The notes beneath the pieces were generated by a model. The model was not told the origin of the DNA. It worked only from the letters and a program-made list of their open reading frames with translations, and did not search any database. A stretch of 64,000 nucleotides of DNA from positions 1 through 64,000 of the forward strand of contig NZ_MEHT01000017.1 of the NCBI RefSeq assembly GCF_001870675.1, written 5' to 3'. This document shows positions 570 to 4,449 of this stretch, piece after piece; position 1 is the stretch's first letter, and each line of letters opens with the position of its first letter. The position numbers and the translations under genes were made by a program. The DNA comes from Roseinatronobacter thiooxidans. Its GTDB lineage: Bacteria; Pseudomonadota; Alphaproteobacteria; Rhodobacterales; Rhodobacteraceae.

Positions 570-1079
570 TCACCAAGTAAACAACTTCGTGTAACACTGG
601 TCGCTTATAAATCGGCCTTGTTTTTTTAGTTGGTTGAAAATCCATAGAGTATTGACGTTCATATCTTTTGAGGCACCAAAGTAAGTTTCCCCAAGATCTT
701 GTGACAGCGTGTGATACAGGTCTGGCTTTTCGATTTCTTTGACCACGCCTGTTTCTTGCGTCCAGATAAATTGAAAATCCGGGCTTGCGTTCTCATACTT
801 AATCCAAGCTGAGCCAAATACTGCCTTTTCGGTGATATGAATCGGAAAAACTTCCTGGCCGATGGCACGTCCATCGGGTTCCCGAATTACTATGACAGGT
901 TTGAAGTACGGGCGACTGAAATCGATATAGGCTTCATATCCAATTTCAGTGCCATTGGGAAGACGGACACAGTCCCCGAATTTAAGTGAATACAAACCTG
1001 CCAAGGTGAAGACAGGGATGCCCACAAGGCTCAGAAGACCTAATGAGATAGTCAGTAGCGCAACAAGAATCTTGTGCAT
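570..1079 (-). CDS. Small membrane-anchored or secreted protein, candidate immunity partner
   Basis: This 169-residue protein matches no family I know. Residues 5-30 are a strongly hydrophobic segment after a lysine, so it is probably membrane-anchored or exported, with the rest outside the cytoplasm. Its ATG overlaps the stop of the upstream MuF-like gene in a TAATG arrangement, which indicates translational coupling. Polymorphic toxins are usually followed directly by a small immunity gene, and a membrane-anchored immunity protein would protect the periplasm or envelope. Immunity is an inference from position only. The moderate GC content, below that of the core genes, fits acquired DNA. 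Confidence 0.6.
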   Translation of the reverse strand: MHKILVALLTISLGLLSLVGIPVFTLAGLYSLKFGDCVRLPNGTEIGYEAYIDFSRPYFKPVIVIREPDGRAIGQEVFPIHITEKAVFGSAWIKYENASPDFQFIWTQETGVVKEIEKPDLYHTLSQDLGETYFGASKDMNVNTLWIFNQLKKQGRFISDQCYTKLFTW

Positions 1080-1966
1080 TATCTATATCGAATTCTAGCT
1101 GGATCAGCATAAATCTGACCTTCCAAGCTTCCCGACCACTGGCCTGTTATGGAGTAAGGCACACCTTCGCGAACGCCCAATCGCTGACGACCATTGGATG
1201 GCAAGCCGACCCGTCCACGTAGGTCGTCATGCAATGGCTTGTGAATGTTATCGTACAAGATGCTGCCGGGGCTGTAATCGTCAACCTCGATCCCAATATC
1301 CAAGGGATCGGTGAATTCGTCATCCAGATAGAAATCTAAATCACCTTCAATCGTTAGGATGCCGTTTTTCTCGGAGCTTTGTCCAGAAAACGACCCTCCT
1401 ATCGTCGTATCGGCGATGGCAAACACCACGCCCGTCATGTCGTAGGTGTTCACGAAATTGTAGGAAACACTGCCCGAACGTGAAGTTCTGGCAGCACGAG
1501 CAGTTTGCTGTTTGATTGCTTCTCCGCGAAGGTCAATGAACGCTTCTATAATCTTACGGCTATGCCCAATCTCGGGGAGAGTGACACCCCGCCCTCGTCC
1601 ATTGAAATAATGGTTTACGAAGTCGTTGTTGTCCCAACCTGACTTTGTGCCAATCCCGTCTATAGAAAGTTCAATATACTCAGACACTTCATCAAAAAAT
1701 GGCCCAGCTGTGCAACGGCAGTTGTAGTCTTCGCCTGGATGCCCACCTTCAGGCGGGTCATCCCATGAGAAAACCTGTCCTTCCCGTTCTACATGGGATG
1801 AGCGGACTTTGCCGTCGCGGCATGTTCGCCAGATGTAATGCGTTGTTGGTCGCTCTTGCTTGATCGACCACATAATCGGCGTGCCTTTTCTCAGGTATTC
1901 CTGAAAGGCTTTTCTGTAGATGTGTTGATCGACGATCATGGGAGCCTGCGCATAGGAGAAATTCAA
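1079..1966 (-). CDS. MuF/minor-head-like domain protein with an unknown C-terminal domain, candidate polymorphic toxin
   Basis: The 295-residue protein starts at a TTG with GGAGGAAG about 9 bases upstream. Residues of about 40 to 90 carry the end of a phage Mu F/SPP1 gp7 minor-head domain: the W.T..D..VR.SHV...G.VF.WDDPP pattern followed by GHPGEDYNCRC, with the typical Cys-x-Cys end. The N-terminal helical part of a true MuF domain is largely missing. Residues of about 160 to 295 form an acidic, beta-rich C-terminal domain (FTDPLDIGIEVDD..., YSITGQWSG) that I cannot place. MuF domains are known to carry C-terminal toxin domains in prophages. The directly coupled membrane protein downstream supports a toxin-immunity pair, but no catalytic residues are identified. 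It could also be an isolated phage morphogenesis remnant. Confidence 0.6.
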   Translation of the reverse strand: MNFSYAQAPMIVDQHIYRKAFQEYLRKGTPIMWSIKQERPTTHYIWRTCRDGKVRSSHVEREGQVFSWDDPPEGGHPGEDYNCRCTAGPFFDEVSEYIELSIDGIGTKSGWDNNDFVNHYFNGRGRGVTLPEIGHSRKIIEAFIDLRGEAIKQQTARAARTSRSGSVSYNFVNTYDMTGVVFAIADTTIGGSFSGQSSEKNGILTIEGDLDFYLDDEFTDPLDIGIEVDDYSPGSILYDNIHKPLHDDLRGRVGLPSNGRQRLGVREGVPYSITGQWSGSLEGQIYADPARIRYR

Positions 1967-2566: not shown

Positions 2567-3055
2567 TCAGCATATCTGGATTTTTACCCAATCCAGCCCG
2601 AAACGCCCCAGATATTTGCGCAGCCTGTCAGCGTCATTTTGGCTGGCCTTGCCTTGGCGCGAGGTTGCAAACAGTCGACGCCCTGCTGCCGACAGACTGG
2701 TGCACTCACGGCAAGCGCGCAGTACAGCGGCCAGTTGTACGCGGTCGAATTCGTCCAGCGCATCCGGGTCCTGCAGGACATCCGCCAGAAGGGCTGCGTC
2801 AGCATCCTGGCGCGCGGCGGCCCATTGTGCGCGCAAGCGCGAGATTTCGGCCTGCACCATCGGCAGGGTGATGCGTCCTCGTTCGGCGAGCGTCGCCATG
2901 CGGTGGGCCGAGGCGCGCAGATCGCGTAGATTGCCGGGCCAAAGCGTGTTCGGGTCGGCGGCGAAGCGCAGATAGGCGGCTTGGGCATCCGTGTTGAAAC
3001 CGGTTTTGCGGTCAAGATCGCGCTCGGTCGCCTCGGCGCGCGTGGCGATGGTCAC
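2567..3055 (-). pseudogene. rtcR: C-terminal stump of RtcR, sigma-54 activator of the RNA-repair operon
   Basis: The 162 codons match the end of RtcR: the tail of the AAA+ domain (FNTDAQAAYLRFA...WPGNLRDLRAS..RMATLAERGRI) followed by the winged/HTH part (FDRVQLAAVLRACRE..SLSAAGRRLF..SR..K.S.NDADRLRKYL.RFGL). A full RtcR has about 530 residues with an N-terminal CARF-like sensor and an AAA+ ATPase carrying Walker motifs, and all of that is missing. The break at about 3050 runs straight into an rtcB fragment on the other strand. The stump cannot activate transcription. Confidence 0.85.
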
Positions 3056-3556: not shown

Positions 3557-3826
3557 TTGCAGGTGGTTAGACTGAGGGAGATCGTTGTGATCTTGGAATT
3601 GAAGCGACAAGGCCTTGGTGTCAGTGCGATTGCGCGACAGACAGGGTTGGACCGCAAGACGGTCAGGAAGTATCTGGATCGGGGCCTTGAGGCGCCGATC
3701 TATGGACCACGAGAACCAGGCGCCCGGCTGGCTGAGCGATTTCAATCATATTTGTCAGATCGGCTTGAAGCCTTTCCAGGCCTGTCAGCACGTCGTTTGC
3801 ATCGTGAGATTAAGGCGATGGGCTGA
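3557..3826 (+). pseudogene. istA: IstA transposase, N-terminal fragment (IS21 family)
   Basis: Eighty-nine codons remain of a protein that usually has about 400-500. The start could be TTG 3557 or GTG 3563. A helix-turn-helix (LGVSAIARQTGLDRKTVRKYL) is followed by YGPREPG..L...F..YL..RL..FPGLSARRLHREI, the typical IstA N-terminus. The DDE catalytic domain is entirely missing, so it cannot transpose. Confidence 0.85.
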
Positions 3827-4449
3827 CCAGCCGTGACATCAGCGGCGGGCTTGTCCTGCGCGAAGAGCTTGGCGCGGAAGACGACTTTGATGACGCCATC
3901 GCACGGATCAAAGCCCTCGCTACGGTCCATGGCGTCGACTATGACGGGCATGGGGAATGGCTAGGCGAAGACCCCGAGGACGGCGGCAAGGGGCTTGATA
4001 TCCTGTCCCAGAGGTTGACCAAGCGCACCGGCATCAAGCCCGGTCACGGCTTTGCTTTTGATTTGCCCGATGGGCGGTTCGGCCATGCGATTTATGTCGG
4101 CAGTGACCGGATGGGCACTGTTCTGCTCGATATCAGCACTCTGGTCACAGATCAGCCTGCGAGCCCGGATCAGCTGCGTGCGGCGCCGAAGCGCTATCGC
4201 CAGCCGATCCTTGTCTGGCATACACCCTTTGCCGTGCGTCTACTTGCGCAGAGCGTGGCTCTGGTCGAATTGCCCCGCGATGTTACGTTTCGGTGTAGCA
4301 CTTGGGACCCTGAACCGGATATGCTGGCCAAACTTGAGCATCGTTTCGGCGTGACCAACTCAAGCACGCCAGAGGGCTGGAATACCGTGCTCATGGCGAT
4401 CCTGATGGGCGCGACAGATAGAATTGCGCTCTGGGATCAAGTGACATGA
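3814..4449 (+). pseudogene. 5'-truncated RraB-like / Imm26-like fusion protein
   Basis: The frame opens right at the IS21 junction and has no start of its own before ATG 4015. Its first part (DDFDDAIARIKALATVHGVDYDGHGEW..EDPEDGG) matches the C-terminal half of RraB, the RNase E inhibitor, whose E. coli form has VEYDGWGTYFEDPNGEDG at the same place. The second part (GHGFAFDLPDGRFGHAIYVGSD...LLDIST) resembles Imm26-type immunity domains. RraB-like folds also occur among immunity proteins, so a lost role in toxin neutralisation is plausible. The N-terminal half of the RraB-like domain is gone. A shorter product from ATG 4015 would hold only the Imm26-like part. Confidence 0.55.

Follow-up and report, generated by a model that had tools for sequence, protein, structure and literature searches.

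A half-MuF protein with a predicted colicin M fold and its membrane-anchored partner: a putative effector–immunity pair in Roseinatronobacter thiooxidans and its relatives

The first 64,000 nucleotides of contig NZ_MEHT01000017.1 of the alphaproteobacterium Roseinatronobacter thiooxidans (assembly GCF_001870675.1, forward strand; hereafter 'the window') carry two overlapping genes on the minus strand (Table 1). One encodes a putative effector consisting of half of a phage MuF domain followed by a C-terminal domain (CTD) of predicted colicin M fold, and the other a small membrane-anchored partner, the putative immunity protein. Both open reading frames (ORFs) and their TAATG stop–start overlap had been noticed in a preliminary description made from the nucleotide sequence alone, and both are present, on the minus strand. 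The overlap makes translational coupling of effector and partner probable. The TTG start of the effector at position 1966 is credible because GGAGGA lies 8 nt 5' of it and because a relative in another genome (L062; loci and genomes bear our own L and G numbers) has the TTG in common with the window effector and lacks Met10. The GC content of the cassette (0.477) is below that of the whole window (0.597), which suggests acquired DNA. Within a genome of 3.5 Mb, the window opens contig C10 (G000:C10), whose first base is window base 1; the pair sits at the contig end, and its context is seen only as far as the contig reaches.

Table 1. Features of the effector–partner cassette (positions in the window)
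Feature	Position	Strand	Remarks
Effector gene	1079..1966	-	295 aa, TTG start; half MuF and predicted colicin-M-like CTD
C-terminal half of Phage_Mu_F domain	1706..1858	-	residues 37–87, profile 59–111 of 112; ends in NCRC
CTD core, predicted colicin M fold	1109..1648	-	residues 107–286; structure model
Candidate active-site motif D216-x-[FY]218-x-D220-P221	1304..1321	-	conservation in 31 sequences
Insert of about 38 residues (228–266) between two core strands	1169..1285	-	missing in some relatives; low model confidence
TAATG stop–start overlap	1077..1081	-	probable translational coupling
Partner gene, putative immunity protein	570..1079	-	169 aa, ATG start; N-terminal membrane anchor and beta-rich domain
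Partner transmembrane helix	978..1076	-	residues 2–34

The effector matches the MuF families PF04233 (E 2e-12; 48.3 bits against a cut-off of 29.6) and TIGR01641 (E 6e-13), with only the C-terminal half of the PF04233 domain covered. The 'minor-head-type motif ending in NCRC' of the preliminary description is therefore a genuine MuF match, but NCRC occupies residues 82–85 rather than lying near residue 90. The PF04233 match recurs in 28 of 30 members of the CTD family (two of the 30 being partial pieces). Six other MuF proteins were run against Pfam: known toxin domains are present in four (RNAse_A_bac, EndoU, CDI_toxin_EC869 and WHH/Colicin-DNase), and L036 and L038 gave MuF only; the Pfam matches of four partners of such proteins include one SUKH and one CdiI. 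Judged by these sequences, the MuF half is a polymorphic-toxin carrier with variable C-terminal toxin domains.

One phage contig (L054) holds two adjacent MuF effectors in opposite orientations (1117–2697 and 3557–4414): beside the window-type pair stands a second MuF protein whose C-terminal part matches the adhesin/hemolysin chain of 4g6v (1.6e-21), which we take to be CdiA, and similar second MuF matches occur in L055 and L056. Three further MuF proteins (L036:754–2028, its relative L042:1129–2403, and L043:1129–2403, a relative of L042) have an endolysin-like C-terminal domain, as judged from a PDB search on L042 only (matches up to 6e-30; presumably GH19 type), and a downstream partner that is possibly secreted; in L043, the partner gene starts with what appears by eye to be a signal peptide. 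Because of the endolysin-like domain of L042 and the apparent signal peptide of the L043 partner, a second envelope-directed MuF pair probably exists in the same family.

The CTD had been thought to begin at about residue 150 and to match no familiar toxin class. Its boundary is nearer residues 97–107, residues 228–266 are an insert, and its predicted fold is colicin-M-like: in a structural comparison of the CTD model (VIA-align), members of the colicin M family took ranks 1–10 and 12, which supports a colicin M fold. Sequence searches returned less. The CTD has no match in Pfam or NCBIfam, and its profile found weak matches only in the PDB, the best being an amidase at E 0.022. PHROG 31798, a family of unknown function, matches effector residues 115–225 and likewise all 30 family members examined. 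The colicin M profile PF14859 matched none of 30 CTD-family members at E up to 1; a search with it in 398 genomes (those listed belonging to the host family) matched neither a genome nor a control and is thus uninformative.

Conservation in 31 sequences picks out a candidate active site, with D216 kept in 30, F218 in 29, D220 in all 31, and P221 in 30; H119, Y175, Y271 and W277 are conserved as well. Members of the colicin M family have the motif DxYDx5HR, with degenerate forms in some ColM-type bacteriocins, such as DxFKx5R, according to the available text of PMC5821083. The CTD family keeps the D and the aromatic residue of this motif and conserves neither the D at +3 nor HR, a correspondence drawn from sequence and not from a residue-level structural alignment. 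With these two elements missing, there is no support for a canonical colicin M enzyme. Colicin M is a toxin that destroys a building block of the cell wall, and the CTD may act on lipid II.

Searches with the CTD yielded 45 loci (L046–L090), comprising 16 on viral contigs, 28 in genomes, and one on a 5.8-kb plasmid, pTB4 of Roseobacter denitrificans. Four (L072, L074, L081 and L082) duplicate a contig present in two collections, which leaves 41 distinct loci; L098, where a contig edge leaves only part of a CTD, has no assigned partner. Most of the 28 titled genome relatives are, we assume, Rhodobacterales; one bears the title Hyphomicrobiaceae (L076) and one uncultured Alphaproteobacteria (L071). 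A set of 385 genomes drawn from the class gave five more distant homologues besides the window, and the CTD had no match at E 1 in 50,697 phage records. Among 394 host-family genomes, 40 contain the effector in whole or in part, in many cases as the MuF half alone. A first scan of genome contigs with the partner as query found no match, and a partner search of the 394 genomes found eight with a match, one of which (G388; L009, L016) was rejected as a false positive, being a frame of 451 aa with similarity over residues 50–139 only.

The genomic contexts fall into three kinds. In 17 of the 41 distinct loci, the cassette occupies one phage late-gene slot, with a tail terminator gene next in 17 and a DUF6441 gene before it in 14 (in three, the downstream gene alone matched); eight loci follow an integrase; and 16 have fetched flanks, some of them short (e.g. 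3.1 kb in L077), in which none of the phage reference genes was seen. The names DUF6441, tail terminator, tail tube, and tyrosine integrase for these neighbours are our presumptive assignments. A lambda-type portal is present in L070 (TIGR01539), with a related one in L052. The preliminary placement 'outside any visible phage' holds for the window, as far as the contig reaches, and for several relatives, but not for the 25 loci that adjoin phage genes. Stand-alone copies include L062 and L063, presumably flanked by lysC and ptsP and by purF and cvpA, respectively. All 17 window-type cassettes in the late-gene slot are co-directional with the late genes, and five MuF proteins with other CTDs in the same slot (L028, L029, L037, L038 and L039) all run against them, that of L028 having an RNase A type CTD. 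The CTD was not seen as a fixed structural part of phage heads; a normal head protein was rejected as an explanation because the slot holds other MuF CTDs in related phages and because the cassette also occurs away from phage genes. Upstream of the window cassette lie two partial ORFs, an AAA+ lid fragment below the Pfam cut-off (2567–3055, minus strand) and a helix-turn-helix fragment (3557–3826, plus strand), which suggest a rearranged region at the contig end.

The partner was correctly described as a short protein starting with a hydrophobic helix. It has no match at E 1 in Pfam, NCBIfam, or PHROGs and none in the phage records; its profile found nothing in the PDB at E 10 except an unrelated HPr chain (0.23), and no fold match was found for its model, the structure of the colicin M immunity protein Cmi not being among the 50 structures listed. 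Scoring covered 37 of the 45 loci and the window, and gave a hydrophobic helix at the N-terminus. In this set, cysteines after the helix are mostly even in number (Cys22 of L071 being taken as inside the helix), with L077 (five) and L089 (three) as the clade B exceptions. The partners of L060, L078, L080, and L082 were first listed from an inner ATG only; a longer GTG reading includes the helix in L060, L078, and L080, while L082 duplicates the contig of L060. Two CTD homologues (L096:722–2484 and L095:1186–2689) have a convergent multi-helix membrane gene in place of the anchored partner, and the L096 effector bears PG_binding_1 (7e-11) N-terminal to the MuF half and CTD. An AlkB-type 2OG-Fe(II) oxygenase gene lies directly 3' of the partner on a chromosome (L014:7124–7738) and on plasmid pTB4 (L090:983–1570).

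Several lines of evidence tie the two genes together. A partner ORF lies directly downstream of the effector in all 45 loci, as had been anticipated for MuF proteins with this CTD, and the sole partner match in the 394 genomes that lacks a linked effector, the false positive aside, is a broken remnant (L015). A chance pair of ORFs was rejected, the pair being kept across many genomes. In clade A (18 sequences), mean identity falls from MuF (0.75) through the CTD (0.59) to the partner (0.45). Effector and partner trees of 26 intact pairs, the set used for all tree and distance tests, have 13 of 23 splits in common, nine of them strong in both, and show no strong conflict, against a mean of 0.22 and a maximum of 3 shared splits in shuffles. 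Decay was counted in 45 distinct loci, namely the 41 above plus the window, L010, L011, and L020. The pair is intact in 33; a damaged effector accompanies an intact partner in seven (L010, L011, L050, L057, L064, L071 and L077), and the reverse occurs in none. In the rest, L089 has both genes damaged, L065, L069, and L078 are cut by a contig edge, and the effector of L090 spans the origin of the plasmid record. Two remnants stand outside this count, one of a partner lacking an effector (L015) and one of a half-MuF lacking a partner (L025). In L097, the effector is followed, by eye, by what appear to be three partner paralogues in tandem, of which the last is truncated where the locus ends (L097:1210–3489), possibly a polyimmunity array.

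Conserved linkage, toxin domains on the same MuF module in other proteins, matching trees, effector-first decay, and the tandem partners of L097 together make the reading as an effector with a membrane-anchored immunity protein, already put forward in the preliminary description, well supported. Two observations count against reading too much into them. Distances to the partner correlate equally for MuF and for the CTD (0.86 each), so that the whole cassette descends together and the gene-tree match should not be over-read; and the effector is the longer target, which makes effector-first decay, taken alone, weak evidence.

We consider it probable that the cassette is an antibacterial effector–immunity pair belonging to the MuF polymorphic toxins. 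In this reading, the truncated MuF domain would be an inherited trafficking module. The partner, tethered to the inner membrane and exposing its beta-rich domain to the periplasm, would shield the producer and its siblings. Phages would carry the cassette as cargo between head–tail and tail genes or beside an integrase, and single cassettes such as that of the window would have become chromosomal genes.

Other explanations account for parts of the evidence. The near-invariance of D216, F/Y218, D220, and P221 is what a working site would show, but the loss of the D at +3 and of HR, together with the degenerate motifs of some ColM-type bacteriocins (PMC5821083, in its available text), leaves some room for a domain that has ceased to cleave lipid II and instead binds it or some other molecule of the envelope, or acts on a different phosphoester, with the partner still neutralising it; we regard this as doubtful, yet a serious candidate. 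The cassette might instead encode a phage entry protein, its half-MuF seated in the capsid and ejected so that the CTD acts on the wall for DNA entry, with the partner serving lysogens in superinfection exclusion. MuF proteins are capsid-associated according to the available text of PMC5576092, sister MuF proteins have endolysin-like or peptidoglycan-binding domains, and the late-gene slot accounts for 17 of the 41 distinct loci. Nevertheless, 24 of the 41 distinct loci lie outside that slot—eight by an integrase and 16 without phage reference genes, including the 5.8-kb plasmid—MuF proteins on the opposite strand of that slot bear different CTDs, including an RNase A domain, and the partners are the fastest diverging part; an entry function is thus unlikely.

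Slightly less probable still is that the cassette is a phage remnant in decay that no longer has a function in the window genome. Its low GC, its place at a contig end by a partial AAA-lid ORF and a helix-turn-helix fragment, and the broken relatives in several genomes would fit, whereas both window ORFs are intact, with a ribosome-binding site and the stop–start overlap, and a second genome has kept the pair at L062, with a CTD 83% identical. A module for addiction or stability of a mobile element, in which an intracellular toxin and its antitoxin act without delivery to other cells, would explain the stop–start overlap and the copies on the small plasmid pTB4 and beside integrases; the membrane anchor of the partner, its mostly even cysteine numbers after that anchor, and the MuF module that the effector shares with delivered-toxin architectures make it very improbable.

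For the preferred effector–immunity reading, a few searches of the window genome bear on possible delivery. A single PF04860 (portal) match was found there, clustered with the RcGTA tape measure NF058675 and baseplate hub TIGR02218; this RcGTA-type cluster (L092; G000:C41:86000–104500) also includes an NlpC/P60 protein (TIGR02219), and its portal is of HK97 type. Single-family searches did not find VipB (type VI secretion) or PF05136 (lambda-type portal) in this genome, no other secretion system having been searched for. Should packaging still be directed by the MuF half, a candidate carrier would be the gene transfer agent (GTA), the only phage-like particle that these few searches brought up. 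The full proposal, in which a colicin-M-like effector aimed at lipid II is loaded by the half-MuF into phage-like particles, with the host GTA delivering stand-alone copies, strikes us as distinctly unlikely; if true, it would make the RcGTA-type particle a toxin-delivery device.

The literature places such a cassette at the margin of known MuF systems. MuF toxins have been called exclusively phage-encoded and mainly from Firmicutes, and in Proteobacteria many MuF C-terminal extensions are unexplained, a third of them with the domain Ct_MAD (Jamet 2017, PMC5576092, in its available text). In the accessible part of Zhang 2012 (PMC3482391), alphaproteobacteria are among the MuF systems, and packaging in the phage head is predicted. 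Tested MuF toxins are Bxa, with two immunity proteins (PMC11699363), and the Apk2 toxins (PMC12226406), each as given in the portions available. The lipocone paper (PMC12419801), the only one found to treat both MuF and colicin M, names no MuF–colicin M fusion in its available text. Among the papers listed for MuF and toxins in Rhodobacter, no title concerns MuF toxins; the one paper found to link the gene transfer agent of Rhodobacter with toxins, immunity proteins and the capsid deals, by its title and abstract, with release control; and no paper was found for BtpeA, the effector of 9jdi. If the preferred reading holds, MuF toxins, mainly from Firmicutes phages in what is available of PMC5576092, would gain a target in the envelope and an immunity protein tethered to the membrane, and Rhodobacterales would gain antibacterial cassettes outside phages. 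Whether a MuF domain carries a toxin into phage or GTA particles would become testable.

With MuF polymorphic toxins, as far as the available texts describe them, the cassette shares an N-terminal MuF domain, a variable C-terminal (here putative) toxin domain, and a small downstream partner gene; links to prophages are seen in 25 of the 41 distinct loci but not at the window locus as far as the contig reaches. It differs in having only the C-terminal MuF half, in its slot between head–tail and tail genes or by an integrase, in its stand-alone and plasmid copies, set against the exclusively phage-encoded toxins reported, and in a CTD of predicted colicin M fold with a membrane-anchored partner; no MuF toxin with a periplasmic target is described in the accessible parts of the MuF literature (Jamet 2017, Zhang 2012, Bxa). 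The predicted catalytic fold and the D and aromatic residue of the motif recall the colicin M family (colicin M, PaeM, syringacin M and pectocins M), from which the effector is set apart by a MuF half in place of receptor and translocation domains (no TonB box having been searched for), by the missing D at +3 and HR, by the lack of a sequence-profile match, and by its occurrence in Alphaproteobacteria. Cmi resembles the partner in layout only, with one N-terminal transmembrane segment, a periplasmic domain, and two cysteines near the domain ends (PMC8469651, in its available part), but has 117 aa against 169 aa, and no fold match was found for the partner model. Similar in design are the colicin-M-fold toxins with membrane-anchored, BamE-like immunity proteins (PMC12419801): in the available text these, too, pair a polymorphic toxin with a fast-evolving anchored partner, although there the N-terminal domains are cystatin-like or of other kinds and MuF is among the delivery domains of other toxins. 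What is new here is that the CTD is placed in the predicted colicin M fold, that its partner has a membrane anchor, that the carrier is only half a MuF domain, and that stand-alone copies occur.
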